Virus record (IMG/VR): IMGVR_UViG_3300031673_000144
Span: 1 to 42,534 of that record
DNA from: a virus
Length of the DNA stretch: 42,534 nucleotides
Strand: one strand, 5' to 3'
Part shown: positions 5,847 through 32,833 of the stretch, one piece after another
Numbering within the stretch: position 1 is the first letter of the stretch
Layout of the letters: each line of letters begins with the position of its first letter
Translations under genes and position numbers: made by a program
The notes under the pieces: model-generated
Told to the model about the DNA's origin: nothing
Seen by the model: the letters and a program-made list of their open reading frames with translations, nothing else
Databases searched by the model: none

Positions 5847-6868
5847 ACCGCGAAGGGCCGGACAAGATCGGATATCTCGATTGGACTTGGAGTCCCGTAG
5901 TCGGATGCACGAACGGTTGCCCCTGGTGTTGGGCGCGGCGGCAGGCGAAACGGCAGAAGCACAACTGCCGGAAGTGCTACGACTTTATCCCCCACCTGCA
6001 CCCCGAACGCTTGGACGAACCGCTGCGGAAGCGGAAGCCGTCGGTGATCGGCGTCGCGTTCATGGGCGACCTGTTCGACCCGACGCTGCCGGATGAGGAC
6101 AGAGATAGGGTGTTTGCCGTAATGGCTTTGGCGAACCGGCACACCTTCTGCATCCTGACGAAGCAGCCGGAGCGGATGCAGGTATACCTCAACAACAAAG
6201 ACCGGTTGCTGGATGGCATTTGGGGTGCTTTCGCGGACAACCACGTGGGGCCGACCATTTCCACCGCCGATGATGTGCGGAAATGGTGCAAGAAAAAGGG
6301 CATGCCGGAGCGGGAGCGCGATCGACGCATGGGCATCATCCAGGATGCCGGAGGGTTTTGGTTCGGCCGGCCGGACTTGACCTCGGCGGCTTTCTGGCCG
6401 TTGCCGAACGTCGTCCTCGGCGTGTCGGTCGAGGACCAGGAGAGCGCGGACCGGCTGATTCCCGAACTCATGGCGTGCCCGGTCGCCAAGCGGATCGTCT
6501 CGATCGAGCCGATGCGAGGAGTCGTGGATGTTTCGCCCTGGCTCAAGCCTCAAGCCTCGGGCCCGCGGGAGCGAGGTCTCGCCAAGGCGGACCTCAAGCC
6601 CGCCCTCTCCGGCGTGATCCTCGGCGGACAGACGGGGCCCGTAAAAGAGGGTTCCCTTCGTTGCGGAGAGTACGCCGTGCAAATGGATCCCGACTGGGTC
6701 CGCCAGGTCCGCGACCAGTGTCAGGCGGCGGGCGTCCCGTTCTACTTCAAATCCTGGGGCGCGTTGGTCCCGGCCGACCAGGCCCGCTGGGATGGGAAGG
6801 GCCGGATGCTGGACGGCCGGACGCATGATGAGGTGCCATGGACGGCGGGCTTGAGGCCTGAGGCTTGA
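5843..6868 (+). CDS. Phage Gp37/Gp68 family protein (DUF5131)
   Basis: A 341-residue protein typical of the phage Gp37/Gp68 (DUF5131) family. The N-terminal VVGCTNGCPWCWARRQAK (about residues 18-35) is a CxxxCxxC-type cluster reminiscent of radical-SAM iron-sulfur sites. Other family phrases are VAFMGDLFDP, FCILTKQPERM, PNVVLGVSVEDQESADRLIP, IVSIEPM and GVILGGQTGP. The C-terminal VPFYFKSWG is also usual. Biochemical function is unproven; a radical-SAM-like activity is an inference from the Cys cluster. AAAGGAG precedes ATG 5843. One copy of the GCGAGGTCTCGC palindrome lies within the gene (6571-6582). Confidence 0.88.
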   Translation: MNREGPDKIGYLDWTWSPVVGCTNGCPWCWARRQAKRQKHNCRKCYDFIPHLHPERLDEPLRKRKPSVIGVAFMGDLFDPTLPDEDRDRVFAVMALANRHTFCILTKQPERMQVYLNNKDRLLDGIWGAFADNHVGPTISTADDVRKWCKKKGMPERERDRRMGIIQDAGGFWFGRPDLTSAAFWPLPNVVLGVSVEDQESADRLIPELMACPVAKRIVSIEPMRGVVDVSPWLKPQASGPRERGLAKADLKPALSGVILGGQTGPVKEGSLRCGEYAVQMDPDWVRQVRDQCQAAGVPFYFKSWGALVPADQARWDGKGRMLDGRTHDEVPWTAGLRPEA

Positions 6869-6875
6869 GGAAAAG

Positions 6876-7649
6876 ATGACTGACCCGAACCCGATTACAT
6901 CAGCCGACCTCTTGCGAATGCTGCATACGAGATACTCGGATACGGGTTGGGCGTTCTTCGCCGAGGTGCCGGACCGCACGGCAGGCCATTTTCGGCGCGC
7001 GGACGCAGTTGCCATCAGCCTGTGGCCGAGCCGCGGCCTGCACCTGCACGGATTCGAGGTCAAGGTGTCTCGTCGGGACTGGCTGGACGAACTCAAGAGG
7101 CCGGAGAAGGCGGAGTCCATCGGCAAGTATTGTGATTTCTGGTGGCTGGTGGTGAGCGACTCGTCCATCGTCGAGGACGGCGAGTTGCCGTCCGCCTGGG
7201 GGCTGCTCGCCCCGTCCGGGAATGGGCTGAGGACGCTCGTGAAGCCGACGGCGCTCGAGCCGTTGCCGATCGGCCGGCCGTTCCTGTGCTCGTTGCTGCG
7301 CAAGTTCGCCGAGGGGCAGGTCCCCAGGGTGAGCATCCAGAACAAACTAGCGGCGGAATATAAGCGGGGGGAGGAGGCGGCGGCCCGCATGGCCTCCTAT
7401 GACGCGGAGGACGCGCTAAAATTGCGTGACGCGGTGAAAGTGTTCGAGGGCGCCACTGGCCTGAAGATCCGGTGGTCCGACCTGAACGAACTCGCCCAGG
7501 TCAAGCGATTCGTGGGTCTTACACAAGAATTGCGGGAGGGAGCCGCCAACGAGGCGTTGGCCCTTGCCGCCAGGACGGTAAAAAGGCTTCGAGACGTAGC
7601 GACGGCGCTTGAGGGCGCCCTGCAAGCGAAGGGGAGTGGCGATGTCTGA
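6876..7649 (+). CDS. PD-(D/E)XK nuclease-like protein
   Basis: A 257-residue protein. The first half reads RRADAVAISLWPSRGLHLHG then FEVKVSRRDWLDEL and later CDFWWLVV. The Asp (DAVA) followed by ExK (FEVK) on adjacent strands is the PD-(D/E)XK nuclease core, as in MmcB/VRR-like phage proteins. The C-terminal part (from about residue 155) is helical and may be a coiled coil. Start ATG 6876, eight bases after the previous stop, with GAGGAAAAG before it. It could process DNA ends or recombination intermediates. The 3' end overlaps the next small frame at 7642. Confidence 0.7.
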   Translation: MTDPNPITSADLLRMLHTRYSDTGWAFFAEVPDRTAGHFRRADAVAISLWPSRGLHLHGFEVKVSRRDWLDELKRPEKAESIGKYCDFWWLVVSDSSIVEDGELPSAWGLLAPSGNGLRTLVKPTALEPLPIGRPFLCSLLRKFAEGQVPRVSIQNKLAAEYKRGEEAAARMASYDAEDALKLRDAVKVFEGATGLKIRWSDLNELAQVKRFVGLTQELREGAANEALALAARTVKRLRDVATALEGALQAKGSGDV

Positions 7650-7713
7650 CCCGGTCTTGATCCGCTCGGGTGAGCGCGTCTGCCCGGACTGCAAAGGCCG
7701 CGGGCGGCGGTGA
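7642..7713 (+). CDS. First half of a split zinc-knuckle microprotein
   Basis: A 23-residue frame, MSDPVLIRSGERVCPDCKGR then GRR, with one DnaJ-type CPxCxGxG knuckle. A GGGGAG ribosome-binding site precedes ATG 7642. The matching second knuckle lies in a different frame just downstream (7716-7787). Read through a -1 shift at about 7704-7711, the two would give one 48-residue two-knuckle protein, the usual form in phages. It may be a programmed frameshift, a sequencing indel, or two coupled microproteins. Confidence 0.45.
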   Translation: MSDPVLIRSGERVCPDCKGRGRR

Positions 7714-7715
7714 CG

Positions 7716-7787
7716 ATGCCCGGGGGACGAAAGACAGAGATGTCTTGCGGGACGTGCCACGGAAGCGGAAAGAGAAAAAAATCGTGA
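7716..7787 (+). CDS. Second half of a split zinc-knuckle microprotein
   Basis: A 23-residue frame, MPGGRKTEMSCGTCHGSGKR then KKS, with one CxxCxGxG knuckle. Its frame is open upstream across the stop of the preceding microprotein, so translation could reach it by a -1 slip as well as from its own ATG. The TGA overlaps the GTG start of the next gene (GTGA at 7784). By family logic the pair of knuckles would chelate zinc. Confidence 0.45.
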   Translation: MPGGRKTEMSCGTCHGSGKRKKS

Positions 7788-8203
7788 GCAGCCTGACGCT
7801 GGACGAACTCCGGGCGGCGCTGCCGGCGCCGCTGATGAAGAAGATCGAGGCGCAACTGGATCTCGGCCAGGCCGCGAAGTTCAGGTCCAAGCGGCGGAAG
7901 TACGGGAACCAGCCGGTCTATGTGGACGGGCGGCGGTTCGACTCGAAGGCGGAGGCTAGGCGGTACGAGGAACTCATGCGCCTGCACGCGGCGGGGGAGA
8001 TTCTGTGGTTCTGTCTCCAGCCGGTCTTCCGCCTGCCGGGCGGAATTGAGTATAGGCCGGACTTCATCGTCGTGTCGGCCAGCGGCAAGGTCTTCGTCGA
8101 GGATGTCAAGGGCGGCAAGGCGACCAAGACGAAAGAGTACCGCCTGAAAAAACGGTTGATGCTGGACCGGTACGGGATCGAGATCGTGGAGGTGCACAGT
8201 TGA
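7784..8203 (+). CDS. DUF1064 family nuclease-like protein
   Basis: A 139-residue protein starting at GTG 7784 (VSSLTLDELRAALPAP). The core KYGNQPVYVDGRRFDSKAEA with RRYEEL, then EYRPDFIVV and VFVEDVKGG, then YRLKKRLMLDRYGIEIVEV, is the DUF1064 pattern, a PD-(D/E)XK-type fold with D (PDF) and ExK-like (EDVKG) residues. Members are found in phage replication regions and are thought to be nuclease-like. The start is chosen because the upstream in-frame codons overlap the zinc-knuckle frames and give an unlikely sequence. Confidence 0.85.
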   Translation: MSSLTLDELRAALPAPLMKKIEAQLDLGQAAKFRSKRRKYGNQPVYVDGRRFDSKAEARRYEELMRLHAAGEILWFCLQPVFRLPGGIEYRPDFIVVSASGKVFVEDVKGGKATKTKEYRLKKRLMLDRYGIEIVEVHS

Positions 8204-12371: not shown

Positions 12372-14411
12372 ATGGCGGACACCAAAGCGAACGATGAACT
12401 GAACGAGCGGCTGGATGCGTTTCTCGCCCTCGGGCAGGAGGACAACAAGGCGTGGTCGGCGCTCGCGCGGGACGCCGAGGACTACATCTTCGGCAACCAA
12501 CTCAGGGGCGTCGACAAACGCGACGGGTGGGACCGGATCGTCGCCAACTACCTCTTCCCCGCCGTGACGCAGCAGATGGCCCTGATGGCACAGCGGCGGC
12601 CGGCGGTGGTGGTCGAGCCGTGGGAACCGGATGATGCCCCGTTCGCCGATTTCTGGCGCGGGCTGGAACAGTACCGGTTCGACCGGACGCTCAGGATGAA
12701 CATCCTCGGGCTAGGGGCGACCCTGGACGCGGCGATCCACGGGTTCTACGTCGCGAAGGCGTACTGGGAACCGAAGGCGGAATGGGTGGCCGACGAGCAC
12801 CGGTGGCGGGGCGAACCGAGGGTGAGGTTAATGCGGCCGGACTACTTCGGCATGGATCCCGACAACGAGACGACGACGGCGTCGGATGCTTCTTTCGTCT
12901 ATTGTCACCGGAGGGCACTACTGGACAAGGTCCTGGCGCGGTGGGCGGACAAGGCAGAGGAAATCAAGCGGGAAGCCCGGGAGGGCCCCGAGGACTTGGC
13001 GATGCCGGGCATGGCAACGTTCGGGGGCGAATTTGAGCACCGGGCGGAAGGCCAGACCGATCCGGGCCCGGCCGGCAAGACGGAGGGGCGGCTGGTGAGT
13101 CTGCTGCGCGCTGCGCGCGGCTACGGAGAGGGAGGCCAGGCGCAGGGAGCGGGCGGCCGAGGCGAAGACGGTCTGCCCCGGTGGGTGACGGTGACGGAGG
13201 TGTTCTTCAGGGACGGGAAGGAACGGAGCGGCCGGGAGACGCGGCCCGTGCCGTTCGAGGAACTCTTGCAGCAAGGCTTGGTCACATACGATGAGGAGTT
13301 GATGGTCTACCGTGTGGGCACCGAGGGCGTCTTTGAGGGGAAGATGGTCGGCGAACCCTTGACGATGCAGGATAGTTTGCCGGAACAGGTCGTCCGCGAG
13401 TGGAAGGACGAGCCGGTGTGGCCGAACGGCCGGGTGGTGCTGCGGATCGGCAAACTGATCCTCAACCCCGACGCTGAGAAACCGTGGGATGAGGGGGGTC
13501 AGGTCTGGCCGTTCCGGTCGTGGCCGTACCTGGTGGGAGTGAACCAGATACTCCCGCACGTCTGGCGCGGCCTGAACGCAGCCGAGATGCCGCGCACTTT
13601 GCAGGACTGGAAAAACGTCGCTTTCGCCCACATGGCGAACTACATCAAGTTTTTCGGCGACCCGATCGCCATCGTCGAGGAAGGGGCGGTCGCGGGCGCG
13701 GGCAAGGACGAGAAGAAACTCGCCAAAAAACTCCGGGCGCGGGCGGGGGCGATCTGGCTCGCGGCGAAGGGCGGCCTGGACAAGATACGCCGGGACCCGC
13801 CGCCGCCGATGTCGCGCGGGATCCTGGATATCGACGCCCTCATTTCGCGGGAACTCCAGGACCAGACGGGGATGCAGGAGGTGGCGCGGGGCCGGCAGGG
13901 GACGGGCCAGGTGACGGCGACGGAGGTGCAGGAACTTTCGCGGTCGAGCCGGGTGCGGACGAGCCTGGCGGCGATCCTTCAGGACGATTGGATGGAAGGG
14001 GTGATGCGGTTCGTCGCGGAGATGGACCAGCGGTACCTCGAGCCGAACGACATGGTGCGGATCGTCGGCAAACGGGCCGCCATGCAGATGGCGCAGGCCG
14101 GCCAGGGGATGCGCGCGGATGGGAACGATGTAAAATTCGACCTCAGCCTTAAGATCGGGACCGCCCTGCCATTCGACCAGGAGCGCCGCAAGGAAGAGAT
14201 GGCGGAACTCTTCAAGGCGGTGGGCCCGGCGATCCTGCCGGAACTCCTAGCGGCGTTCGGCGTGGAGAACGCCGAGGAGGTCCTGGCCCGGTCGGAGATG
14301 TGGCAGGCGTTCCAGCAGTTCCAAGAGATGCAGGCCGCGGCGGCACAGCGGGCGGAGGTGTCAGCGGGCCACGGCCGGAGCCGTACCCCGGCCAGGGAGA
14401 AAGGTTCCTGA
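12372..14411 (+). CDS. Portal protein
   Basis: A 679-residue portal, which would form the dodecameric ring at one capsid vertex for DNA entry and exit. Typical segments: an N-terminal helical region with WSALARDAEDYIFGNQL; PAVTQQMALMAQRRP, the usual 'N-I-x-x-x-V--R--PK' region; DYFGMDPDNETTTASDASFV; and a C-terminal part with ARGRQGTGQVTATEVQELSR, seen in large portals. The gene is between terminase and scaffold as expected. A Gly-rich insertion (about residues 220-270) is unusual. The stop overlaps the next ATG (TGATG at 14409). Size and motifs give high confidence in the role. Confidence 0.85.
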   Translation: MADTKANDELNERLDAFLALGQEDNKAWSALARDAEDYIFGNQLRGVDKRDGWDRIVANYLFPAVTQQMALMAQRRPAVVVEPWEPDDAPFADFWRGLEQYRFDRTLRMNILGLGATLDAAIHGFYVAKAYWEPKAEWVADEHRWRGEPRVRLMRPDYFGMDPDNETTTASDASFVYCHRRALLDKVLARWADKAEEIKREAREGPEDLAMPGMATFGGEFEHRAEGQTDPGPAGKTEGRLVSLLRAARGYGEGGQAQGAGGRGEDGLPRWVTVTEVFFRDGKERSGRETRPVPFEELLQQGLVTYDEELMVYRVGTEGVFEGKMVGEPLTMQDSLPEQVVREWKDEPVWPNGRVVLRIGKLILNPDAEKPWDEGGQVWPFRSWPYLVGVNQILPHVWRGLNAAEMPRTLQDWKNVAFAHMANYIKFFGDPIAIVEEGAVAGAGKDEKKLAKKLRARAGAIWLAAKGGLDKIRRDPPPPMSRGILDIDALISRELQDQTGMQEVARGRQGTGQVTATEVQELSRSSRVRTSLAAILQDDWMEGVMRFVAEMDQRYLEPNDMVRIVGKRAAMQMAQAGQGMRADGNDVKFDLSLKIGTALPFDQERRKEEMAELFKAVGPAILPELLAAFGVENAEEVLARSEMWQAFQQFQEMQAAAAQRAEVSAGHGRSRTPAREKGS

Positions 14412-16309: not shown

Positions 16310-17317
16310 ATGGCCGAGACCAACCTCTCCGCATCCACGAGGGAACTCTGGACGCGCACGACAGTGAACGAGGTGTTCATGGCCCTGCCGTTGACGGCGA
16401 TGCTGATGGAGCATCGCCGCGTCAATTTCAAGGGCGGGACCAAGATCAAGAAGACCGTCACCAAGGCGACGATGACGGACCTGGCGCAGGACTACTCCAG
16501 CAACGAGCCTCTGGAGGGCGGGAACAAGACCGTCCTCGGCGCCCCGGAGTTCGGCTGGAAGAAGTTTCAGATTCCGGTCGAGTACGGGATCGACGAGGAG
16601 TTGCAGAATCATCAGGTGGCCGAAGAGACCGCACCGGCGGATCTTGTGGCTGCCCTTGTCGCGGGCGCCCAGTACGCCGCGCGGGAACACCTTGCCGCGA
16701 TGGCCTACGCGACCACGACGGGCGAGACGGGCAAGGTCTTCCAGGGCCTCGCGTGCGCCCTCACCCACGACACGGCGTATGGGGGCTATACCCGCACCAT
16801 CGCCTCAACCCTCAACACGTTTTTCCAGGGCGCCTCGGCGGATCTGACCTACACGGACTGGGACACGGCGATTGCGGCTTCTCTCGCCAACTTCCGCATC
16901 CTGGTGACGGCCTGCCGGCGGTACGCCCCGAAGAACCGAAAACTCTACGCCTTCATGGGAGAGTCGCTCTTCCAGGCGTTCCAGAGCCAAGCCGAAGCCC
17001 GCATGATGAACACCAAGCCGGTGTCGGGCGCGCCGGGGATCTACAAGTACGGGTTTAACACCCTCTGGATCGACGGCGTGGAACTCGTGCAGGACTCGTA
17101 CCTGACGACGGCCGAACGGACGGCCGCCTTCTACATCCTGGACCCCGAGACCTGGGAACTCAGGATCAGTCCGAAACGCAACTTCAAACTCACCCCGTTC
17201 GTGTGGCAGGGCGACATGAACGACGGCATGGACGCCTGGCTGGGCCGCGTGATGGCCGCGGGCAACTTGGTCTGCTGGCAGCCGAACGCGAACATCTACC
17301 GGTCGGCGATGACGTGA
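16310..17317 (+). CDS. Major capsid protein (HK97-fold type)
   Basis: A 335-residue capsid protein following the scaffold. Characteristic parts: an N-terminal STRELWTRTTVNEVFMALPL, the strand-rich GGTKIKKTVTKATMTDLAQD, a spine-helix-like PADLVAALVAGAQYAAREHL, and C-terminal NKPVSGAPG-type and GVELVQDSYLTTAERTAAFY with YILDPETWELRI. These match major capsid proteins of tailed phages that self-assemble on a scaffold. The most highly expressed structural gene is expected here, and hairpins flank it on both sides. The strong Shine-Dalgarno is less clear (GGAGAATAGCC before ATG). Confidence 0.85.
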   Translation: MAETNLSASTRELWTRTTVNEVFMALPLTAMLMEHRRVNFKGGTKIKKTVTKATMTDLAQDYSSNEPLEGGNKTVLGAPEFGWKKFQIPVEYGIDEELQNHQVAEETAPADLVAALVAGAQYAAREHLAAMAYATTTGETGKVFQGLACALTHDTAYGGYTRTIASTLNTFFQGASADLTYTDWDTAIAASLANFRILVTACRRYAPKNRKLYAFMGESLFQAFQSQAEARMMNTKPVSGAPGIYKYGFNTLWIDGVELVQDSYLTTAERTAAFYILDPETWELRISPKRNFKLTPFVWQGDMNDGMDAWLGRVMAAGNLVCWQPNANIYRSAMT

Positions 17318-17329: not shown

Positions 17330-17382
17330 CCGGCGACGGTCGCCGGACGGAGTGAGGGCCCCGGCCGCCTCGGCGGCCGGGG
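17330..17382 (+). other. Two strong hairpins after the capsid gene
   Basis: CCGGCGAC-G-GTCGCCGG (17330-17346) and an 11-bp perfect stem CCCCGGCCGCC-TC-GGCGGCCGGGG (17359-17382) occupy the gap 17318-17454. Neither is followed by a T-run. They probably protect the upstream capsid mRNA from 3' decay or lower read-through. Confidence 0.6.
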
Positions 17383-17454: not shown

Positions 17455-18039
17455 ATGGCTAACGTGACGGTGGACAGTGAAAAGATCATCCTGTTGGACC
17501 GGCTGCCGGGGCTTCCGAATCCGCACATGCGGCCCCCCACGGACGGATTCACCGGGGCCGGCCACCACAACGTCGTTGCGGCGGCCTACGACGTGGGGAC
17601 AAAGGTCCAGGTCTTCAACCACTCGGCCTCGGCGGGCGTGGATGGGTATTCGACGCTGGTGTACGGAAAATTGGAGGCGCAGGACACGACGAACGTCCTG
17701 GCGGCCCGGCACTTCTGCGCCTGGCACAGCGACGCCGTGCCGTTCGACTTCACGAACGAGGTTGCGACGTACATCGGGGAAAGCGTGTCGCCGATCGTCG
17801 TGGCCCTCGGGGCGATGACGATCGACTACTTCGGCTGGTTCTGGTGCGGCGGGGTGTGCCCTGAGGAGCACGTCGCCGCCTTGGGCGGCGTGTACTACTG
17901 CGCGGCGGCGGCGGCCATCGGGCCGAACACATGGGGCGACCTGGAGACGCCGGGAACCACGGCCGGCGAACTCGGCCTGGAAACTGCCGATGCGGACACG
18001 GACATGATCGTCGCCATCCTTCTGGCGGCGGCGGCGTAG
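17455..18039 (+). CDS. Paralog 1 of a four-member virion-type family
   Basis: A 194-residue protein, first of four related genes downstream of the capsid gene (others at 18507, 19140, 19793). Shared landmarks are the opening VDSEKI-like segment, HHNV, a GTKVQVFN strand, YFGWFWCGGVCPEE and LGG(V/T/N)Y. The Cys-Trp-rich GWFWCGGV is the most conserved part. Placement right after the major capsid gene suggests head decoration or another abundant virion protein, but this is not proven. GAGGAGAAGGGCA precedes the ATG. Its C terminus differs from the other three and is Ala-rich. Confidence 0.65.
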   Translation: MANVTVDSEKIILLDRLPGLPNPHMRPPTDGFTGAGHHNVVAAAYDVGTKVQVFNHSASAGVDGYSTLVYGKLEAQDTTNVLAARHFCAWHSDAVPFDFTNEVATYIGESVSPIVVALGAMTIDYFGWFWCGGVCPEEHVAALGGVYYCAAAAAIGPNTWGDLETPGTTAGELGLETADADTDMIVAILLAAAA

Positions 18040-18094
18040 GATCCGGCGACTAGCCGGACAACGGAAAGGACCCGCCTTCGCCCCGCGGGCTCGA

Positions 18095-18110
18095 CAGGCC
18101 GCGAGGCCTG
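18095..18110 (+). other. Hairpin CAGGCC-GCGA-GGCCTG
   Basis: A perfect 6-bp stem with a GNRA-type GCGA tetraloop lies in the gap 18040-18149 between paralog 1 and the small gene at 18150. It is one of a series of stem-loops that separate genes in the capsid cassette. Confidence 0.5.
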
Positions 18111-18149
18111 ACGGCCTACGGGCTACGGCGAGGCTGAAAGGAGACACTC

Positions 18150-18413
18150 ATGGCCTGGGATCCTGCAGTCAACCATACGGCGACCCTGATGGGCGCCACC
18201 ATCGAGTTCGGGGAAGCGACGCTTGCGAGCGGCACGATCGAGGTGCCGACGCGGCTCTCGAAGGTCTTGGCCGGCTTCGCCACCTACAAAGCGGTCCCGG
18301 CTGCGGCTACCAAAATAGTCGTGGACTGCACCATTACTTCCGGTGCGGTGACGGTCGCCTCTGCGGCGGGCGGCGACAAGAAGGTGAACTACCTGTTCAT
18401 CGGCTTGACGTAG
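18150..18413 (+). CDS. Small beta-rich virion-type protein
   Basis: An 87-residue protein, MAWDPAVNHTATLMGATIEF..., predicted all beta with alternating hydrophobic residues (KIVVDCTITSGAVTVASAAG, VNYLFIGLT). It is not related to the four paralogs that surround it. Phage decoration proteins often have such a size and start MAWDP-like. GAAAGGAGACACTC precedes ATG 18150. Probably a minor capsid decoration or stabilising protein. No membrane segment or signal peptide. Confidence 0.6.
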   Translation: MAWDPAVNHTATLMGATIEFGEATLASGTIEVPTRLSKVLAGFATYKAVPAAATKIVVDCTITSGAVTVASAAGGDKKVNYLFIGLT

Positions 18414-18433
18414 GCGGTACGGGGAAAAGAGAA

Positions 18434-18470
18434 CGGGGCCGGGGTCGCCGCTGGCGACCCCAACGCCCCG
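18434..18470 (+). other. Long GC hairpin between genes
   Basis: An outer CGGGGC/GCCCCG and an inner perfect GGGGTCGCC-GCT-GGCGACCCC stem (18441-18461) lie in the gap 18414-18506. There is no T-run. It is one of the capsid-cassette stem-loops. Confidence 0.6.
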
Positions 18471-18506
18471 CGCCCAAGGTCGGGCGGCAAGGAAAGGGAG
18501 AAACCC

Positions 18507-19073
18507 ATGATCGACGGAACGCTGGACTCTGAAGTCTTCACGCTCGTGGACAACTGGCCGAGCGAGCGGAACATCCACGTGCGGGAACCCACGGACGGGT
18601 TCCTGGGCGCAGCGCACCACAACGTCGCCACGGAGGAGTACCAGGCGGGGACGAAGGTGCAGGCCCGCAACAAGGGAACCACTGGCAAGCCGGGATTCTC
18701 CACGTTCATCTACCTTCAGGTGGGGGTGCAGAATGCGTTCACCGCCATCGCGGCCAAGTCGATCGTCGTCCCCGACTCGGTGGCCTCCTGGTTCAAGGTG
18801 ACGAACGATCCGGACGACTGCATCGTCCTGCCGACCAGCTTGGTCGCCGTGGCCCTGTCGGCCATGACCAACCTCTACTTCGGCTGGTTCTGGTGCGCCG
18901 GGGTGGCTCCCGAGGAGTTCGTGCCTGGCCTCGGCGGGACCTACGCAACGGACGGGACGGTCGAGACGGGCCGCATCCGGGCGGTTCACCTGTCGGTCGA
19001 TGCCATCGGCCTCGGGCCCTGCCCGGAGGGCGAGCCGGGGTGCGGCATCGCTTACGAGCCCGACCGCGTGTAG
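18507..19073 (+). CDS. Paralog 2 of the four-member virion-type family
   Basis: A 188-residue protein. It shares with paralog 1 the segment EPTDGFLGAAHHNV and with all members FGWFWCAGVAPEEFV and LGGTYATDG. It shares with paralogs 3 and 4 the 'AAK..VVP' and VTNDPDDC regions and the C-terminal IGLGP. So it links the two pairs and suggests an old duplication before the 3/4 split. AAAGGGAGAAACCC precedes ATG 18507. Likely an abundant virion surface protein; function unproven. Confidence 0.65.
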   Translation: MIDGTLDSEVFTLVDNWPSERNIHVREPTDGFLGAAHHNVATEEYQAGTKVQARNKGTTGKPGFSTFIYLQVGVQNAFTAIAAKSIVVPDSVASWFKVTNDPDDCIVLPTSLVAVALSAMTNLYFGWFWCAGVAPEEFVPGLGGTYATDGTVETGRIRAVHLSVDAIGLGPCPEGEPGCGIAYEPDRV

Positions 19074-19097
19074 CGCCGGGCGGACCAGCGCTTCAGA

Positions 19098-19113
19098 GTC
19101 CGCCTCGGCGGAC
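19098..19113 (+). other. Hairpin GTCCGCC-TC-GGCGGAC
   Basis: A perfect 7-bp stem with a two-base TC loop lies in the gap 19074-19139 between paralogs 2 and 3, with the same TC loop as the 17359-17382 hairpin. It is followed by the AAAGGAGTT ribosome-binding site of the next gene. Confidence 0.5.
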
Positions 19114-19139
19114 GGAGCGCAAACCAAAGGAGTTGAACC

Positions 19140-19739
19140 ATGGCCGACTCAACGATTGACAGTGAACTTTTCGTGCTGAAGGACAACTGGCCGGGCGTGG
19201 CCCGGCGCGTCAGCCCGGACAACCTTCCGAACGGCGACATCATCAGCGCCATCCACCACAACGTCGAGACGGCGGTGTTCCCCATCGGGGATAAGATCGT
19301 CGTCCGGAACCGTAGCGCCGTCGCCGGCGACGACGGGGACGCGACGTTCATCTACCTCAAGGGCCTGGCGATCACGGAGGCCAACCCGACGTGCGCGGCC
19401 AAGCAACTCGTCGTGCCGAGCCTGGCGGGGACGCCGTACCAGGTCACCAACGACCCGGACCAGTGCCTCGACGTGACGGGCTGCCCCTTGGCGGCCGTGC
19501 TGCTGTCGATCATGACGTTCACCCACCTCGTCACGAAGTATGGCTGGTTCTGGTGCGGGGGTGTGGCCCCCGAGGCGATGGTGGCTGCCATGGGCGGCAA
19601 CTATCATACGGACGGCCTCGTGGTGGCCGGCCCGATCGTGGCGCACGATCCGGCGACGGCCGACTCCATCGGCCTCGGCCCGGTCGGCGGTGTCACCGAG
19701 GCGATCATCGGGTTCGCATACGCGGCCGACGCGGTGTAG
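19140..19739 (+). CDS. Paralog 3 of the four-member virion-type family
   Basis: A 199-residue protein, closely related to paralog 4. It begins STIDSELFVLKDNWPGVARR, then SAIHHNV, GDKIVVRN, YGWFWCGGVAPEAMVAAMGG and ends AIIGFAYAADAV. A 121-bp block (19321-19441) is identical in DNA to 19974-20094 in paralog 4, while flanking parts have diverged. That indicates recent gene conversion or recombination between the copies. AAAGGAG precedes ATG 19140. Confidence 0.65.
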   Translation: MADSTIDSELFVLKDNWPGVARRVSPDNLPNGDIISAIHHNVETAVFPIGDKIVVRNRSAVAGDDGDATFIYLKGLAITEANPTCAAKQLVVPSLAGTPYQVTNDPDQCLDVTGCPLAAVLLSIMTFTHLVTKYGWFWCGGVAPEAMVAAMGGNYHTDGLVVAGPIVAHDPATADSIGLGPVGGVTEAIIGFAYAADAV

Positions 19740-19792
19740 AGCAAGCGGGTGTTCTAGCGGCGGACGGATAACCAGGAAAAAGGAGACGGACC

Positions 19793-20389
19793 ATGGCCGA
19801 ATCAACGCTGGACAGTGAACTGTTCGTATTGATCGACCTCTGGCCGGGCGTGGCCCGGCGGGTTCACCCGGATCACCTGCCGAACGACGACATCCTGAGC
19901 ACGCTTCACCACAACGTGACGACCCCGGTGTTCGACGTGGGCGAGAAGATCGTGGTGCGGAACCGGGCCGCGATCGCCGGCGACGACGGGGACGCGACGT
20001 TCATCTACCTCAAGGGCCTGGCGATCACGGAGGCCAACCCGACGTGCGCGGCCAAGCAACTCGTCGTGCCGAGCCTGGCGGGGACGCCGTACCAAGTGAC
20101 GAACGACAAGGCCCAGTGTCTCGCCGCCACAGGCTCGCCGTTCGCGGCGGTGATGCTCTCGATCATGACGTTCACCCACGCCATCACGAAGTATGGATGG
20201 TTCTGGTGCGGCGGAGTCTGCCCCGAGGCGATGGTGTCGGACCTGGGCGGCAACTTCGCCTCGGCGGACGGCACGATCATCGGCCCCATCGTCGCCCACA
20301 CCTTGGCGGCCGACGCCATCGGACTCGGCCCCTGCGGTGCCGGCACCGAGGCGATCATCGGGTTTGCGTACTCCGACGACGCGGGTTGA
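19793..20389 (+). CDS. Paralog 4 of the four-member virion-type family
   Basis: A 198-residue protein, the nearest relative of paralog 3. It begins STLDSELFVLIDLWPGVARR, then TLHHNV, GEKIVVRN, KYGWFWCGGVCPEAMVSDLG, and ends AIIGFAYSDDAG. It contains the second copy of the 121-bp identical block (19974-20094). AAAAGGAGACGG precedes the ATG. Keeping four such genes in a row suggests either hetero-oligomeric decoration or receptor-facing diversity. Confidence 0.65.
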   Translation: MAESTLDSELFVLIDLWPGVARRVHPDHLPNDDILSTLHHNVTTPVFDVGEKIVVRNRAAIAGDDGDATFIYLKGLAITEANPTCAAKQLVVPSLAGTPYQVTNDKAQCLAATGSPFAAVMLSIMTFTHAITKYGWFWCGGVCPEAMVSDLGGNFASADGTIIGPIVAHTLAADAIGLGPCGAGTEAIIGFAYSDDAG

Positions 20390-20419: not shown

Positions 20420-20446
20420 GTCTCCGCCTTCCGGCCTGGCGGAGAC
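20420..20446 (+). other. Hairpin GTCTCCGCC / GGCGGAGAC
   Basis: A perfect 9-bp stem with a 9-base loop lies in the gap 20390-20474, closing the capsid/paralog cassette before the connector gene. No T-run. Confidence 0.55.
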
Positions 20447-22508: not shown

Positions 22509-23159
22509 ATGATGGACCGTGAAATCCAACAACGCTTCGAGGCCGTCGATGTGGAACTGCGCAGGCTGAGGGAAGTCGCCGACGATCCGTGGCGGAATCA
22601 GCCGCCGATTTCCCTGGACCCGCCCGGGCCACGGCCCGCGCTGAAGGGGCCGACGCTGCTGCCGGATGTGGCGGAGACCTTCCCGGGCGAGGTCGCCACC
22701 GAGGTCGGCAGCGGAAAATACACCTTCAAGGAGAAGGTGCTGACGGACGGGACGACCTGGATCGACAAGACCGGCGGCCGGACGGGAGATTGCTACGAGG
22801 CGAACGACGTCGCCGGGATTGCGGTCGAGACGATCATCGAAATTCGCGTGGAGCACGACACGGGCGGGACGCTGCGGTATGTGTTCGACTACGAACCTGG
22901 GATTCTGCCCGGAACTGCCGACAAGCAAATGGTCGCGTGGGACCAGACCACGGACAAGGCATGGGAACTGATTCTGCCGGATGACACTTGGCTCGACGTG
23001 GACCTGGCGACAGGGAAACTCATACACAAGGGGCCGGGGCCGGAGGTTTATAAACAAGACCCTGGTTTTTGCCTCATTTTCTACGGGTGGTCTCTGGATG
23101 CCGTAGGACAGGTACGATGGATAAAAACCGACCAAGGAACGGCGGGACCATGCGCATGA
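22509..23159 (+). CDS. Hypothetical structural protein with N-terminal coiled coil
   Basis: A 216-residue protein. Residues 1-28 (REIQQRFEAVDVELRRLREV) look like a short coiled coil, often a trimerisation segment in tail-associated proteins. After a Pro-rich linker, the rest is beta-like with WIDKTGGRTGDCYEANDVAG and YGWSLDAVGQVRWI. The ATGATG start has no clear Shine-Dalgarno, but the gene follows the previous stop by four bases. The end overlaps the glycosyltransferase start. A fibre or appendage role is a guess. Confidence 0.5.
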   Translation: MMDREIQQRFEAVDVELRRLREVADDPWRNQPPISLDPPGPRPALKGPTLLPDVAETFPGEVATEVGSGKYTFKEKVLTDGTTWIDKTGGRTGDCYEANDVAGIAVETIIEIRVEHDTGGTLRYVFDYEPGILPGTADKQMVAWDQTTDKAWELILPDDTWLDVDLATGKLIHKGPGPEVYKQDPGFCLIFYGWSLDAVGQVRWIKTDQGTAGPCA

Positions 23160-23998
23160 CACCGGGACGCGAGACGATTCAAGTCGTGGTCTTCGACGGG
23201 TCGCGGGAACACCCCCTACTTTCTTCGTGGCTCTTAGGGTTTCCGCACGTTCTTCGCTTCCGCGACGTGCAACCCGGTAAGCGCGGGTCTATTTATCTCC
23301 AGACCTGCCGGAACCGCGCCGTCAAATGGTTCCAGCAAGAAACGACTCTTCCGTGGCTCTTGTTGCTGGACGACGACGAGATTCCGGTTTCCGAGACAGA
23401 GGGTCTTATCGTTTGTGAGGCCGACGTTGCCTCTGCGGCCTATGTCTCTCAAAAAGCGGAGATGCTGCACCCCCACCCCGGCGGATTATGTGGTGGCGCG
23501 CTGAAGGTGTCGCGCTACGCGCTGGAGAAGATTGAACCGCCCTGGTTCGGCGTGCGGTTTTCGGCGGACGGATGCGATGCGGTCGAGTGCGAGTGTCAAT
23601 GGTTCGAGCGCCGCGCGAAGGCGGCAGGTTTTCATCCGGTGAAGGCAGGCAGCATCGGGCACATTGTCTCGTATCTGACCCTGCCGACAGAGGACGGCGG
23701 GATGAAGGTTGTGCCGTTGGCCGGAATCCCCGAAGCCCTACGCCGTGGGGCGGGTCAGGAAAAACCGACGCGCAAGGGTGGCGAGAGCGACCGCCAGGGC
23801 AATCGCGGCCACGAAGGCAAGGCCGTAAATGACGGCCCCCAGGATGATGTTGGCGTGAACCGACAAGGGGAAGGGCTGCGCGAGGTAGGGCATCAGCCCG
23901 CTTGCGGACAGAGCGGCACCTGCTCCGACGCCGAACAGGATGCAGGCAGCGAGAACGACGGGCAACTTGCGGGAACGCATGGCAACCTCCTTACCTGA
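23150..23998 (+). CDS. Glycosyltransferase-like protein (GT-A type)
   Basis: About 282 residues from ATG 23150; in-frame ATG 23117 is an alternative. YLQTCRNRAVKWF followed by LPWLLLLDDDEIPVSETEGL is the pattern of GT-A glycosyltransferases, where the Asp cluster (LDDDE) binds metal and nucleotide sugar. EMLHPHPGGLCGGALKVSRY resembles the acceptor-side region. It could modify virion proteins, host surface sugars or DNA bases. From about base 23737 the frame runs opposite a minus-strand gene and its protein becomes low-complexity, so the last 87 residues are probably read-out of that insertion. Confidence 0.6.
   Translation: MRMTPGRETIQVVVFDGSREHPLLSSWLLGFPHVLRFRDVQPGKRGSIYLQTCRNRAVKWFQQETTLPWLLLLDDDEIPVSETEGLIVCEADVASAAYVSQKAEMLHPHPGGLCGGALKVSRYALEKIEPPWFGVRFSADGCDAVECECQWFERRAKAAGFHPVKAGSIGHIVSYLTLPTEDGGMKVVPLAGIPEALRRGAGQEKPTRKGGESDRQGNRGHEGKAVNDGPQDDVGVNRQGEGLREVGHQPACGQSGTCSDAEQDAGSENDGQLAGTHGNLLT
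23738..23980 (-). CDS. Two-helix membrane protein with own promoter (moron-like)
   Basis: An 80-residue minus-strand protein. MRSRKLPVVLAACILFGVGA is a signal anchor; a second hydrophobic helix follows (HANIILGAVIYGLAFVAAIA), then a basic tail. A perfect AAGGAGG lies five bases before the ATG, and a sigma70-type promoter at 24006-24035 points to it. It opposes the surrounding plus-strand operon and overlaps the tail of the glycosyltransferase frame. An independently promoted membrane protein among virion genes is typical of 'moron' genes that alter the host, such as superinfection exclusion. A holin or antiholin is the alternative. Confidence 0.65.
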   Translation of the reverse strand: MRSRKLPVVLAACILFGVGAGAALSASGLMPYLAQPFPLSVHANIILGAVIYGLAFVAAIALAVALATLARRFFLTRPTA

Positions 23999-26566: not shown

Positions 26567-29500
26567 ATGATCGACACGCGGGCCATCCTGGCGAGGCTGA
26601 GGGCGGAACAAGGGCCGTTGCCGGCCCCTGCCGCGCCATCTTCGGGAATGGCCGCGAACGTCGGCGTTCGGGCAGGGGGAGACGAAGGCCGGTTCCGACA
26701 ATGGTATTCCGAGCGAGTGCGATTCTTGGCGTCCAAAGGGCAGCGGCTCAATCCCGATCCGGACGCGCCCGAGCATTTCTACGATTACCGTAAGGCTATG
26801 AGGGCAGGAGCAGAACCGACCCTCACAGAACACGGCGACTATCGCTGGCCGGACTTGGGTAAGTTGCCGGGGCATCCTGTTCCGCCAGAGATTCCCCCTG
26901 CCCCGAACCCCCGGGCCGTGCTGGACCGCCTGCGCGTGGAACAGGGAGCGGCCGCACCGACGGGGCGGGACCTGATGGCGGCGCCGGCGCTGAACCCGCC
27001 GCGATTCTTCTGGGAGAGCGAGCGCCCGGAGAGCAAGTTGCCGCCGGCCGAGCCGCGCAAGGTGACGGTGGGCGAGGCCGTGGAAGAAATGCGGAGTGGG
27101 CGGGCGGCGAGTTACTACAAGGACGCTTCGGGCCAGTATGTGCCCGCTGGTGAGGAACCGTGGTACGTCCGCGCGCCGATGGCCCTAGCCTCGGGCATGG
27201 CCTCGATTCCGGCCATCGTGCCGGGCCTTTACGCGAAAACCGGACTGCCCGGGGCGGAAGCGGTCGGAGAATACGTTGCGAAGCCCCTGGCGGCGATTGG
27301 AGGGGCCGAGCCATCGGTGTTCCGTGAGGGCGCCGGAGCGTTGGCAACGCCGGAGTGGTGGTCCGGTGTCGCCGGCGGACTGGCCGGATATGGCGTCTTC
27401 GCGGCGCCCGCTGTCGGCAAACTCATTCCGAAGGGGGCGGGGCTGCTGAGGCAAATGGCGGCGACGGTCCCGGCGTTCGGTGCCCTGGGCGGTCTGGAGG
27501 CCGCGGCACGGCCCGAGACGACGGGCAGGGACATCATGCTCGGTGCGGCGACGGGCGCGGCGGCCGGAGCGGTGTTGCCGCCGGTGGGGAAAGCCGTGGG
27601 TTATGTATTCCGTAGGGGGGCCGCGAGGCTTGCAAAGATCGGCGCTCCGAAGGCCGCGCTGAAGGCCCGCGAGGGCTACGTTCGCGCGTGGGTGGCGGAG
27701 CAGGCAGGCAAGGGACCGGCGGCGGCGACAAAAAACGCGGAACATAGATACATTTCAGCGCTGAGGCGGTTGCCCGCGGAGCAGCACGGAACCCATCTTC
27801 AACAGGCTAAGTCTATGGCGATGGCCCGGATCCTCGAGGCGGCTCCGGCGGGCGCGGTACGCGGTCCCACGGAAATCAAGTTCGGCCGCGCCCTGGAAGC
27901 AGGCGGGATGTGGGGGTTCGAGTCAAAGCAGATCGCCGATCTCAAGACACAACTGGATGCCGCGCTCCAGCAGGCAAGGGCTCAGGGCAAAGAGCCGGTC
28001 CTGCGCAGAATGAGTGCCGAAACCTGGGCAACCCTCAAGCGACAGTGGCAAAAGAGCGCCGAGGCGTTCCGCGAGTTTTGGTCCGGAAAACTCCCGGCCG
28101 ATCCGGCCAAGCGCGCCGTGACATTGAACTTCCGGCTTCAGGCGGCGACGGCAGGCGCGCAGTACCGGACCGCGCCGGCGGGAGGCACCGAAGCCGAGTA
28201 CCTTTCGTTTCTCGCTCCGGAAACGGTCGCCAAGGCACCCGCCGGGGCGGGGATGAAACTGTACGGGGGTGTTCCTGCCGACCCTGCGGAGTTCATTCGT
28301 CTCGCTCAGACGGTGGGCGACATTTCGCAACCCGTGGCGGTGCGTATCCTGGAGTCCCTTGGCAAGCACGGCGGCTCCGTGGTCCGCGCTACAGTTGCGG
28401 CGTTGGTGGCGCAGGGGATGCCGCGTGAAGCGGCGGAAGGCGTGGCGAGGAACCTGGCGGAGGCGTTCGCCAAGCCTGCCCCGCCCGCCGCTGCCGAGGC
28501 TATGGTGGGCAAGCCGGCCGAGGCCGCGCCGGCTCCCACGAAGGCGGCCGAGATACAGGCCCGGAAACTTGGCATCGACCTCGCGGCGGTCCGGGGGACG
28601 GGACGCAAGGGACAGATCCTTCGCAAGGACGTGGCGGACGCCGCGAAGATCCGGACCATCAGGGAAAAGAGCGAACGGGTCGGCGCGCCCCTCCGGCCGG
28701 GGACCGTCCTTGAACAGACGCGCCAGGCCCTCGAGGACGAGGGCTTGCCGACAAGGGCTGAAACGCCTGGCGTGCCCCAGGAGCGACGAACGCCGGCGGG
28801 CGAGGCCGACAAGGAGGGGGAGATCGCCCCGGCACGGGGCAGGCAGGCCGCCCCACGGCCTCAGAAACCGCCTATCACAGCCGCGGGTAGGGTTCCGTTA
28901 GCGCCAACTCGCCTCGCGTCGAAGCGGGCAGGAGCCGAACAGCCGCCCGCCGGCGAGGAGGTGCCGTTCGAGATCCTGGCGAAGGGCGCCCCGCGCGCCG
29001 CCCCGACGGTCCAGGCGTTCGACCGGATGGAGGCCCCGGAACTAGTGCGGATGCTCGGCAAGGTTTCCGGACCTTACGGAGGCTCGGTCGCCGAGACGAA
29101 AGAGGTCGGCCAGGCGGTCAAGGCGCTCCGGCAGGAGATCAAAAACGACAAGGTCGGCGAGGCGGCGGACCGGAAATACCTGGAGCAGATGCAAGCGGCT
29201 TATCCCGACATCTCCGCCGGCGGAGAGGGTGTCGGGGAGGAAGGCGGCGGGCTGCTCGGGTTGCTGGGCGACGCGCGGATCATTTACGGCAAAGGCGTGG
29301 AACTCGGCGTGGAGATCGAGGAAGCCGTCGTGGGGCTGCCGAAGGCGCTCCGGCGGCACTTCATTCACGTCAAGTATGCGAATGTCAAGGGCGGCGCCGG
29401 GGCCATGACCATCGAGGCCCTGAACCATTATTGGATGACACGAACGGACACGCCGGCCGCAGATGCGCCTTCCCTCAGTGAAACTTTCGACAACCTGATG

Positions 29501-32500
29501 CGAGAGATCAAGGCTTACGAGGCGGCGAAGGCGGAGGGGGCGATTTCAACCGAGGACGCCCTGCGGAAACTTGCGCGGGCCGTGCCGGAAGAGGTGGGCG
29601 AGGAACTGGTTGAGCGAGCGGACAAGTCGGCGGCGAGAAAGGCGGCGATCGACGCGGCACGCGAGAAGGTGCTCGCGGCGGCGGAACCGTACCTGGCGGT
29701 GGAGCGGGAAGCGTTGGAAATCGAAGGAACCGCATCCGAGAGGGAGGCGGCGGAGAAACTTGCGGTTGCCGAGCGCGAAATCGCGGCGGCGCGGCAGACG
29801 ATCAACCAACTGAAGATTCTCCAGGGCAAGGCACAAGAGCGACCGGTCGAGATCGAGGCGCTCCGAAAGGTGTTCGTGTCCATCGCCGAGCGGATGCTGC
29901 CTTTGGAGGAGCGCGGAAAACTCCTCGCCCGCGTGCGAACGCTCAAGACCGTCGTCGAGTTCACCCACGCGCTCGAACAGGCGGAGAAGTACCTCGAGCA
30001 GACCATCAAGTTGCGGATCCTCGCGCGGTACCAGCACTACGCCGGGCTCCTGGAACGGCACAAGCGGAAAATCGAGCCGGAGATTCTGGCCTTTGCGAAG
30101 AAGGCTTTAGCCGCCCGGCCGAGCGGCGGAAGGTACACCGAACTCGAACTCGACACGCTCGACGAACTTGCCGACACGGTGGAACAGACGTGGCACTGGC
30201 ATCAGACGAGCGAAAACCTGCTCGGCCTCGGCCAGTACATCCAACGGACCGAAACGGCCGAGAAGATTCTGGCCGAAGCGACCGCGGGGCGCGAACCGAT
30301 GGCACGACAGGTCGGCGTCGGAGGTCAACCGGTCGCCCCGGACATCGGGAAGGTCCACTGGTTCGGCCGCGAGGGGATTCAGTCGCTCGACACGATGATC
30401 GAGGGGCCGGCCCTGGGCGCGGTCCCCGACGGCCCGCTCTATCGGCATTTCGTCAGCCTGGTGGGGATTGAGGCGAGCGAACCGTATTACCGGCACGTCA
30501 ACGCGGGGCTCGACCACTTGGACGAGGCAATCGAACGCGAACTGGGAATGAAGCGGGACAGCCTGGAGTTTCAAGACTGGGTGCTGGAACCGCTGACGTT
30601 CGATCTGCCGACGCTCGGAAAACTGACCGGCCCGCGCGGGTACTGGGGCGCGCTTCGCAACACGCTGACCGACCCGGACTCGCTGGCCGAGATGGTGACG
30701 GAGGCCTGGTCGGGGCTCGTGTGGGAGAGCGACCTACGGATGCCGAAGTTGCGGCCGACGACCCGCGATGCCGATGCCTTTCTGGCTCAGTGGGCGGAGC
30801 GCGAGCCGCAAGCCGACGAGGTGGCGAAGGCCGCCAAACAATACATCAACCGGAAGGAGCACTTCAAGGCCCTCAGCGAAAAGAACCATGAGATTTTCGG
30901 GCTCTATTTTCCCCCAAGCACCGGCCAGTACTGGGGACGAAGGCGAAACGTCAAGACGGAGGGGCGACTGGACCTTCCCGGCTGGCTCGGCGGCGAGGGC
31001 GACCTACTGATCTCGCAACCGGGCCGGTACAAGGCGCGGACGGGGAGCAAGGCCTCGCTCATCATCGGGAGTTTCATAGACCAGTACATGTCCTCGCTCT
31101 ACGAGGACGCGGCGTTTCTCGCCTACGGGACGCCGGTCCAAAACGCGCTGAAACTGCTGAAGGCCCCGCTGGAACACGGAGACCGGCGGATGACGCTCGA
31201 GGCCTGGCTCCAGGAGTATCACGGGACCAGTTTCGGCAACGCCCTTCGGGGCCAACTGCGGCACATCATGGAATCGCGCCGTCTCTCGCCCGTCCGTTAC
31301 GGCGAGGGCCCGCCGACCGGCGCAGCGCGCAAGGTTTTGGGAGCGACCCGGCGGGCCGTTCTCATGAGTCCGTGGCCGTGGGTCAGCCAGTTGCCGTCGG
31401 GCCTGGCCGCCGCATCCGACACGTTGCGGCCGGTCACGCTCGGCAGCACCCTTTCGGGGATGCGCCGGTCGCTTCTGTCCGGCGAGTTCTCCGGCCTGAG
31501 GGACCTCCTGGAAAGCCGCTCGGCGACGCTTCGCTGGCGCTGGCACGAAGCGAGGGCCGAGTCCATCATCGGAACGCAGACCGAGGCGGGGAGCATTTCA
31601 CACAAGAAGGGGTGGAGGCGCGTCCAGAGGACCGTCCGGTCGATACTGAAACCGCTCATGCACTTCGACTGCAAGGCGATTGTGGGAGACTTCGCCGGGG
31701 CGATCGAGGACCAACTCGCGGCGCGTTCCATCCCGATCCGCGGGCGGCTTCTGGATGTCCTGAACGGCCTGCCCGAGGCGCAGAAGGAGGAGATCATCAA
31801 GGCGGCGGTGGACCACGTTCACTGGCTGGTGCCGCGCACGCAACCCAACCTGGACCCGGCCTACGATTCGGGCATCAAGCGCGAAGCGAAGAAAAGCCTG
31901 TTCTGGACCGTGCTGACGTATTTCACCAACTTCCGCAACCGGATGGTCAACATGGCCATCCGCCTCGCCCACGAGTATCGGCGGACGGGAAACCTGAAGA
32001 AGTTGCTGGCGGGGCTTGTGCCGCTTTTCATGATCACCCTGGCCTATACCCTCAAGGGCAAGACACAGCGGGCCATCAGCGGAGGGAAGACCCCGTTGGG
32101 TGGGATCGGCGGCGACCTCGCCGAGAACGCACTGGGAAACCTGTACGGCGCCGGCGAGGTCGCCCACGCCCTACGGGCGCGGAGCGGATACGCGGCCCGG
32201 TTGCGGGGGATCCCGGCGGCGTCAGCCATCACCGATGTCCTCGGGGGCTTGGTCGAAATGCGACGGATGATCACCGACGGGCCCAAGGTGCGCGGCCCCG
32301 CCGCATGGCGGGCGACGAAGGGCCTGGTGCGCGGGACGGGCATGATGCTGGGACTGCCGACGCCGATCCTTTTCAGCCTGATCCGATCCATGGGCCGGAT
32401 CGGCGAGGGAGAACCGGCCGAGGAGAAAAAGGCGGACCTGGAGTCGCTGGCCTGGAAGGCGAGCGGCGAGGGCGCCGGGGCGGCGGCGGCGGTTGAGAAA

Positions 32501-32833
32501 CTTAAAGTCGCTGGCATGACATTTACTCAAGCCCGGCTCGCTCTGCGTGCGGCGATGCAGGCGCGGGGCGACCGGAGCGCCAAGGCGTGGTTCGAGCGGT
32601 CGCGTGCGCTCAGGAAGGCATGGTACGGGACGGACGGGGCGGTGCCGGCAGGCGAACGGCAGGCCGGCCTATCCAGGAGTCGGGCAAGAGGGGGATTGCC
32701 CGTCCTGGGGCAATCTGGCGCGTCGTTCGGAGCGGCCGGCGTAGAAAATAGGCGTTTGGGCGGATTTCGAGGGGAAACGGCACCGGCGTTCCCCGGACGA
32801 ACGGGGCGAGGCGGGGCCCTGACGCGGGCCTGA
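26567..32833 (+). CDS. 2,088-residue internal virion / ejection-type protein with E3-binding-like motif
   Basis: The largest gene. Residues 5-17 (RAILARLRAEQG) recur near 116-126 (RAVLDRLRVEQG). About 44-100 carry WYSERVRFLASKG and DPDAPEHFYDYRKAMRAGAE, a phrase repeatedly found in phage internal virion proteins. Gly/Ala-rich hydrophobic segments lie around 203-350 and LLAGLVPLFMITLAYTLKG near 1,812, suitable for entering membranes. About 659-695 contain LGIDLAAVRGTGRKGQIL then RKDV, close to the peripheral-subunit-binding (E3-binding) domain of 2-oxoacid dehydrogenases. Long charged helical regions fill the middle. No lysozyme motif was spotted. It probably is ejected to form a DNA conduit. 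Confidence 0.7.
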   Translation: MIDTRAILARLRAEQGPLPAPAAPSSGMAANVGVRAGGDEGRFRQWYSERVRFLASKGQRLNPDPDAPEHFYDYRKAMRAGAEPTLTEHGDYRWPDLGKLPGHPVPPEIPPAPNPRAVLDRLRVEQGAAAPTGRDLMAAPALNPPRFFWESERPESKLPPAEPRKVTVGEAVEEMRSGRAASYYKDASGQYVPAGEEPWYVRAPMALASGMASIPAIVPGLYAKTGLPGAEAVGEYVAKPLAAIGGAEPSVFREGAGALATPEWWSGVAGGLAGYGVFAAPAVGKLIPKGAGLLRQMAATVPAFGALGGLEAAARPETTGRDIMLGAATGAAAGAVLPPVGKAVGYVFRRGAARLAKIGAPKAALKAREGYVRAWVAEQAGKGPAAATKNAEHRYISALRRLPAEQHGTHLQQAKSMAMARILEAAPAGAVRGPTEIKFGRALEAGGMWGFESKQIADLKTQLDAALQQARAQGKEPVLRRMSAETWATLKRQWQKSAEAFREFWSGKLPADPAKRAVTLNFRLQAATAGAQYRTAPAGGTEAEYLSFLAPETVAKAPAGAGMKLYGGVPADPAEFIRLAQTVGDISQPVAVRILESLGKHGGSVVRATVAALVAQGMPREAAEGVARNLAEAFAKPAPPAAAEAMVGKPAEAAPAPTKAAEIQARKLGIDLAAVRGTGRKGQILRKDVADAAKIRTIREKSERVGAPLRPGTVLEQTRQALEDEGLPTRAETPGVPQERRTPAGEADKEGEIAPARGRQAAPRPQKPPITAAGRVPLAPTRLASKRAGAEQPPAGEEVPFEILAKGAPRAAPTVQAFDRMEAPELVRMLGKVSGPYGGSVAETKEVGQAVKALRQEIKNDKVGEAADRKYLEQMQAAYPDISAGGEGVGEEGGGLLGLLGDARIIYGKGVELGVEIEEAVVGLPKALRRHFIHVKYANVKGGAGAMTIEALNHYWMTRTDTPAADAPSLSETFDNLMREIKAYEAAKAEGAISTEDALRKLARAVPEEVGEELVERADKSAARKAAIDAAREKVLAAAEPYLAVEREALEIEGTASEREAAEKLAVAEREIAAARQTINQLKILQGKAQERPVEIEALRKVFVSIAERMLPLEERGKLLARVRTLKTVVEFTHALEQAEKYLEQTIKLRILARYQHYAGLLERHKRKIEPEILAFAKKALAARPSGGRYTELELDTLDELADTVEQTWHWHQTSENLLGLGQYIQRTETAEKILAEATAGREPMARQVGVGGQPVAPDIGKVHWFGREGIQSLDTMIEGPALGAVPDGPLYRHFVSLVGIEASEPYYRHVNAGLDHLDEAIERELGMKRDSLEFQDWVLEPLTFDLPTLGKLTGPRGYWGALRNTLTDPDSLAEMVTEAWSGLVWESDLRMPKLRPTTRDADAFLAQWAEREPQADEVAKAAKQYINRKEHFKALSEKNHEIFGLYFPPSTGQYWGRRRNVKTEGRLDLPGWLGGEGDLLISQPGRYKARTGSKASLIIGSFIDQYMSSLYEDAAFLAYGTPVQNALKLLKAPLEHGDRRMTLEAWLQEYHGTSFGNALRGQLRHIMESRRLSPVRYGEGPPTGAARKVLGATRRAVLMSPWPWVSQLPSGLAAASDTLRPVTLGSTLSGMRRSLLSGEFSGLRDLLESRSATLRWRWHEARAESIIGTQTEAGSISHKKGWRRVQRTVRSILKPLMHFDCKAIVGDFAGAIEDQLAARSIPIRGRLLDVLNGLPEAQKEEIIKAAVDHVHWLVPRTQPNLDPAYDSGIKREAKKSLFWTVLTYFTNFRNRMVNMAIRLAHEYRRTGNLKKLLAGLVPLFMITLAYTLKGKTQRAISGGKTPLGGIGGDLAENALGNLYGAGEVAHALRARSGYAARLRGIPAASAITDVLGGLVEMRRMITDGPKVRGPAAWRATKGLVRGTGMMLGLPTPILFSLIRSMGRIGEGEPAEEKKADLESLAWKASGEGAGAAAAVEKLKVAGMTFTQARLALRAAMQARGDRSAKAWFERSRALRKAWYGTDGAVPAGERQAGLSRSRARGGLPVLGQSGASFGAAGVENRRLGGFRGETAPAFPGRTGRGGALTRA

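Follow-up and report, generated by a model that had tools for sequence, protein, structure and literature searches.

Four diverged paralogs, here called P1 to P4 and together family A, lie in tandem directly downstream of the major capsid protein (MCP) gene of an uncultured virus, and we consider it probable that they are capsid cement (decoration) proteins of the beta-tulip type. On this reading the four paralogs would form a mixed capsid layer, and S, a small unrelated protein encoded among them, would be a lectin-like knob displayed alongside. The DNA analysed is the whole record IMGVR_UViG_3300031673_000144 (42,534 bases), which we refer to as the window.

Four tandem paralogs follow the major capsid gene

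The features of the locus are as follows.

12372-14411: portal gene (phrog_156)
16310..17317, + strand: MCP, 335 aa (phrog_9953 major head protein, E 3e-21)
17455..18039, + strand: P1, family A type I, 194 aa, predicted decoration protein (alignment, tree)
18150..18413, + strand: S, 87 aa, predicted lectin-like knob, conserved partner of family A (HMM family, AF2, Foldseek)
18507..19073, + strand: P2, family A type II, 188 aa (tree)
19140..19739, + strand: P3, family A type II, 199 aa, structure modelled (AF2, Foldseek)
19321..19441, + strand: P3 copy of a 121-bp identical tract, the putative gene-conversion tract (codon shuffles)
19793..20389, + strand: P4, family A type II, 198 aa, sister of P3 (identity, tree)
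19974..20094, + strand: P4 copy of the 121-bp identical tract (codon shuffles)

The original prediction of four tandem paralogs after the major capsid gene, with common HHNV and GWFWC(G/A)GV-PE motifs, was borne out. All four open reading frames are intact and on the + strand, and the cluster begins 137 bp downstream of the MCP gene. HHNV and GWFWC(G/A)GV(C/A)PE are found in each copy, and the four-way alignment contains 43 invariant columns. Pairwise tblastn E-values range from 1e-24 to 1e-98, showing a homology far beyond chance. By inspection of the sequence, every gene of the cluster is preceded by its own AGGAG-like (Shine-Dalgarno-like) site. The same four-copy block is present in another IMG/VR contig (L001), possibly from the same sample, with 1 mismatch in 9,854 bp, which argues against misassembly of the window record alone.

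Perfect GC-rich hairpins with stems of 7-11 bp and no T-run are located at 17359-17382, 18441-18461, 19098-19113 and 20420-20446. Of the six gaps around the cluster four contain such a hairpin, and few hairpins anywhere in the window are stronger; the gaps between A genes in the multi-copy relatives L007, L009, L013 and L032 also hold strong hairpins. These elements could tune transcript ratios. A promoter and terminator scan of the A cluster gave no excess over shuffles. Elsewhere in the window, an open reading frame within the structural gene block (23069-23998) has a DDD motif, looks glycosyltransferase-like by eye and has no PHROG match; its product might modify virion proteins. A 2,088-aa open reading frame at 26567-32833 possibly encodes an internal or ejection protein.

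Copy number varies among relatives

Viral contigs were scanned with A-family and MCP alignments (the latter in subsets), and prokaryote genomes were covered by one further scan. This yielded about 40 distinct loci on contigs of uncultured phages, whose open reading frames were then searched with HMMs. The usual gene order is MCP, one or more A genes and one or more S genes. In every MCP locus whose contig extends past the MCP gene, A lies directly downstream of it; S stands between A copies in the window and in L004. Apart from one weak match, neither A nor the MCP was found in cultured phages among 50,697 phage records. That single match (25% identity, E 0.02) overlaps a primase annotation and was rejected as a relative.

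After removal of near-duplicate contigs and of contigs ending inside the block, 37 loci were available for counting. The search for single-copy homologs, which had been proposed with the original prediction, gave 27 loci with one A copy (L002, L008, L011, L014, L017, L018, L019, L021, L023, L024, L026-L031, L066, L068, L069, L071, L073, L074, L076, L079, L082, L085 and L087). The other 10 have two to five: two in L003, L004, L013, L022 and L032, at least two in L083, three in L007, at least three in L044, four in the window and five in L009. Repeated duplication at this position had been regarded as unusual; with 10 of 37 fully seen loci being multi-copy, it is instead recurrent in the lineage and not a property of this genome alone.

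Two further observations concern the relatives. The A protein of L030 (5974-6552) is missing the usual N-terminal strand and has a similar stretch at its end (DLALSNIVLYDHFG); by eye this looks like a circular permutation, the short tail being unscored by the HMM. Moreover, A is more alike between genomes than the MCP is in nearly all relatives (in L015, for example, 72% for A and 51% for the MCP). Exchange of A genes could give this pattern, in a comparison where best-of-four and local-alignment bias favour A.

An old split, repeated duplication and a probable gene conversion

P1 shares 37-38% amino-acid identity with the other copies, P2 shares 44-45% with P3 and P4, and P3 and P4 are 75.8% identical. 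In the maximum-likelihood tree P3 and P4 are recent sisters (support 100/99), and P2 groups with them in type II (97/90), placed with L009_4736 and L008 within the clade that holds P3 and P4. P1 is a deep outlier that falls in a different subfamily (100/97). The P1-type group (97/89) is made up of the window P1, the first copies of L009 (L009_4127) and L003 (L003_7315), the L015 protein and both copies in L013 and in L022. The copies had been predicted to fall into two pairs. The pairing of P3 with P4 stands, and that of P1 with P2 was rejected, the tree putting these two in different subfamilies.

Both types occur together in the window, L009 and L003, with the P1-type gene first each time, and this coexistence in a fixed order shows that the split between the types is old. 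Lineage-specific sister pairs (P3/P4, copies 2/3 of L007, copies 3/4 of L009, and copies 1/2 of L022 and of L032) indicate in addition that duplication happened repeatedly.

Positions 19321-19441 in P3 and 19974-20094 in P4 are identical base for base over 121 bp, synonymous sites included; outside this tract the two proteins are 70% identical. A run of this length was reached in none of 2000 codon shuffles (mean 28, maximum 67). An identity that includes synonymous sites and exceeds every shuffle fits a recent gene conversion. For all pairs tested dN/dS was 0.19-0.86, values that are rough where dS is near 1 (several pairs being near saturation), and since all are below 1 the copies look maintained.

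The paralogs could instead be interchangeable copies amplified for high expression, with a divergence that is mostly drift and no division of labour. The conversion tract, which keeps parts of P3 and P4 alike, agrees with such a dosage effect, as does the fact that single-copy relatives manage with one A. We nevertheless find it rather unlikely, as the window copies differ from each other at 24-63% of their residues, and several genomes have retained P1-type and type II genes together, with their order unchanged. The second cysteine of a C-x3-C motif also speaks against it: 15 of 17 single-copy proteins have it, against 12 of 24 from multi-copy genomes (Fisher p 0.018), a difference that is only suggestive, as the sequences are related and relatedness is uncorrected.

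Family A is predicted to resemble phage decoration proteins

The AlphaFold2 (AF2) model of P3, built from an alignment of 38 homologs, is beta-rich and confident (pLDDT 91.2, pTM 0.89). It was compared by Foldseek with 350,542 PDB chains and with the BFVD viral library. Phage head proteins take PDB ranks 1, 2, 3, 6, 7, 8, 18 and 46. The top three chains are 8xqb_J0 from lambda, which from its length of 108 residues we infer to be gpD, 8hdt_G, which we take to be a Pam3 capsid chain, and 1td0, the SHP protein of phage 21. Further phage head chains matched are 9kzj_I and 9kzj_H of T1 and 7eel_H of Pam1. The comparison with decoration folds that had been proposed thus brought up phage decoration proteins as the closest solved structures, though no match reaches significance by itself (best E 0.66, TMq 0.24-0.32). 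A beta-tulip is a barrel of five antiparallel strands that has a helix placed between the third and the fourth. MoeA, which appears five times in the top 26 PDB matches of the model, is the only known non-viral beta-tulip (PMC7602432). In BFVD the best matches were mostly uncharacterised phage proteins (best E 1.3e-4), followed by a DUF2190 protein and a “head decoration protein”; large fibre-like structural proteins were also among the matches.

Among PHROG profiles, phrog_29386, a “virion structural protein” in the head and packaging category, matched 9 of the 38 A members in their central part, at sub-threshold to moderate strength (best E 4.3e-6); the window copies match it poorly (P2 at E 0.044; P1, P3 and P4 none). 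The earlier statement that no named family is known for these proteins holds: at usual thresholds the window copies had no match in Pfam, PHROGs or a PDB sequence search, where only a chance match was seen. A profile comparison of A with the T1 and lambda decoration proteins by hhalign likewise found nothing (probability 0.6%). Known beta-tulip proteins are often without mutual sequence similarity (PMC12724387). As membership was not found at the level of sequence, assigning A to the beta-tulips is a claim about fold and function and not about descent.

A role in the neck or tail, with A as an adaptor, whisker or tail-tube protein away from the head shell, seems very improbable to us. One A member has a marginal Pfam tail-tube match (PF25595, E 0.017), and a candidate connector-like gene with no PHROG match possibly follows the cluster at 20475. 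Against these stand the invariable position of A beside the MCP gene and not beside tail genes, the head decoration proteins among the closest solved structures, and the PHROG category. A beta-tulip-type cement protein is our best reading of the predicted fold, based on the Foldseek ranking, the MoeA matches, the PHROG match and the invariant place after the MCP gene. The capsid decoration role originally proposed is supported by this synteny, by the confident fold near phage decoration proteins and by the weak PHROG matches to head and virion structural proteins.

S is a conserved partner with a lectin-like predicted fold

The 87-residue gene had been described as an unrelated interruption of the cluster. 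It is indeed unrelated to A, but it is no interloper, as HMM members of the S family lie beside A in nearly all relatives. The AF2 model of S (pLDDT 91.4) has a lectin-like beta-sandwich fold, and its best Foldseek match is the AP22 gp53 tail fibre (probability 1.00, TMq 0.74). The first six PDB matches each have a probability of 1.00 and come from AP22 gp53, the receptor-binding domain of the Pam1 tailspike and R2 pyocin fibres. With E-values of 0.007-0.045 this relation is one of fold similarity only. S gave no match when tested in Pfam for H-type lectin membership, and none by sequence to the solved fibres. 4MTM has been grouped with the C-terminal domain of R pyocin fibres, a lectin-like trimer whose binding to surface saccharides is known or presumed (PMC6116203).

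In most cases S is encoded on its own, with a length of about 82-105 aa. Two homologs (L024:6573-7457 and L028:6628-8047) carry long insertions before the last strand, one of them with a Ser/Thr-rich linker, and the length of S in L082 and L085 implies a similar insertion or Ser/Thr-rich stretch. Such additions in one loop are as expected of an exposed protein and suggest that this loop is exposed and used for domain insertion. In L018 a 442-aa gene, possibly surface-polysaccharide-related, lies between A and S (6607-7932); L019 and L020 have S homologs at the same distance from A as in L018.

A diversified host-contact layer made of the paralogs was the other role originally put forward. In its strict form, A would be a set of head-fibre or adhesin-type proteins selected for different hosts and without a cement role. 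Large fibre-like structural proteins among the BFVD matches would agree with this, and proteins displayed on the heads of other phages bind glycans (PMC7602432). We consider it unlikely, given that A is compact in all relatives (about 180-260 aa, without a long fused tip), that dN/dS is below 1 throughout and that the domain insertions and Ser/Thr-rich linkers are found in S instead. Host contact better suits S, which folds like phage receptor-binding lectin domains; judging from the predicted folds, S is likelier than the A paralogs to contact glycans or the host.

A proposed mixed capsid layer with a separate knob

The reading of A as cement and S as knob can be put as a sequence of events. 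The ancestral state would be a single A copy directly after the major capsid gene. This gene would have been tandemly duplicated many times in the lineage, leading in the window to four copies that have diverged, are translated separately and stay under purifying selection, and recombination between copies would re-homogenise part of the fold. By analogy, A would be present in the virion as a trimer capping the three-fold sites of the capsid. The paralogs would most likely share one capsid, joined in heterotrimers or forming homotrimers with a preference for different quasi-equivalent sites. S, with a lectin-like knob of the type that serves receptor binding in tail fibres, would be shown on the head together with A, as gene order suggests, and would provide outward contact, including glycan binding, as a separate protein.

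Hetero-oligomeric assembly of the paralogs is plausible by analogy and a reasonable idea, and T1 gp48/gp49 are a direct precedent. A single T1 capsid carries 80 homotrimers and 60 heterotrimers of these beta-tulip cement proteins, and the tip that protrudes from gp48 is considered an aid to adsorption (PMC11945409). The two proteins are 45% identical. T1 (Tunavirus) and the window both have paralogous genes beside the MCP gene, with a putative cement role in the window, and both T1 chains (9kzj_I and 9kzj_H) are in the Foldseek list for A, with no detectable sequence similarity. T1 has two copies upstream of the MCP gene, whereas A has up to five downstream, and the Ig-like tip is fused to gp48, whereas the lectin-like S has a gene of its own.

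Lambda gpD, phage 21 SHP, TW1 gp56 and P74-26 gp87 probably have in common with A both the core fold and an HK97-type MCP as capsid partner. The gpD-type proteins are single-copy and shorter; gpD has 110 aa, and the additional length of A, about 80-90 residues, counts against the beta-tulip reading. As with gpD, the A gene lies beside the MCP gene, in all relatives that continue past it. The gpD gene is upstream and A downstream, and no sequence similarity was found. For S, the likeness to AP22 gp53 and the C-terminal domains of R-type pyocin fibres is in predicted fold; those domains form the tip of a tail fibre, whereas S is mostly a free-standing gene of the head module. A beta-tulip lattice combined with a second, adhesin-like decoration has been described in Sf14 (PMC11821841). 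A two-paralog cement system is already known from T1; what is found here is a family downstream of the MCP gene with up to five copies and a separate lectin-like partner.

A still bolder and rather improbable possibility is that the window encodes a decoration lattice of four components, with a separate class of quasi-equivalent site or a fixed heterotrimer position for each paralog and with the knob docked on the lattice. If true, phages would have a counterpart of the multi-protein triplexes seen in herpesvirus capsids, one that duplication and gene conversion had enlarged and reshaped. Decoration proteins are usually encoded by a single gene. The loci described here, with one to five copies and old subfamilies side by side, offer a natural series in which to study the step from a homotrimeric to a heteromeric shell; T1 is the two-component version, and the A loci suggest a route to versions with more components. 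S, the constant partner with a predicted receptor-binding lectin fold, points to glycan contact from the head and not from the tail.
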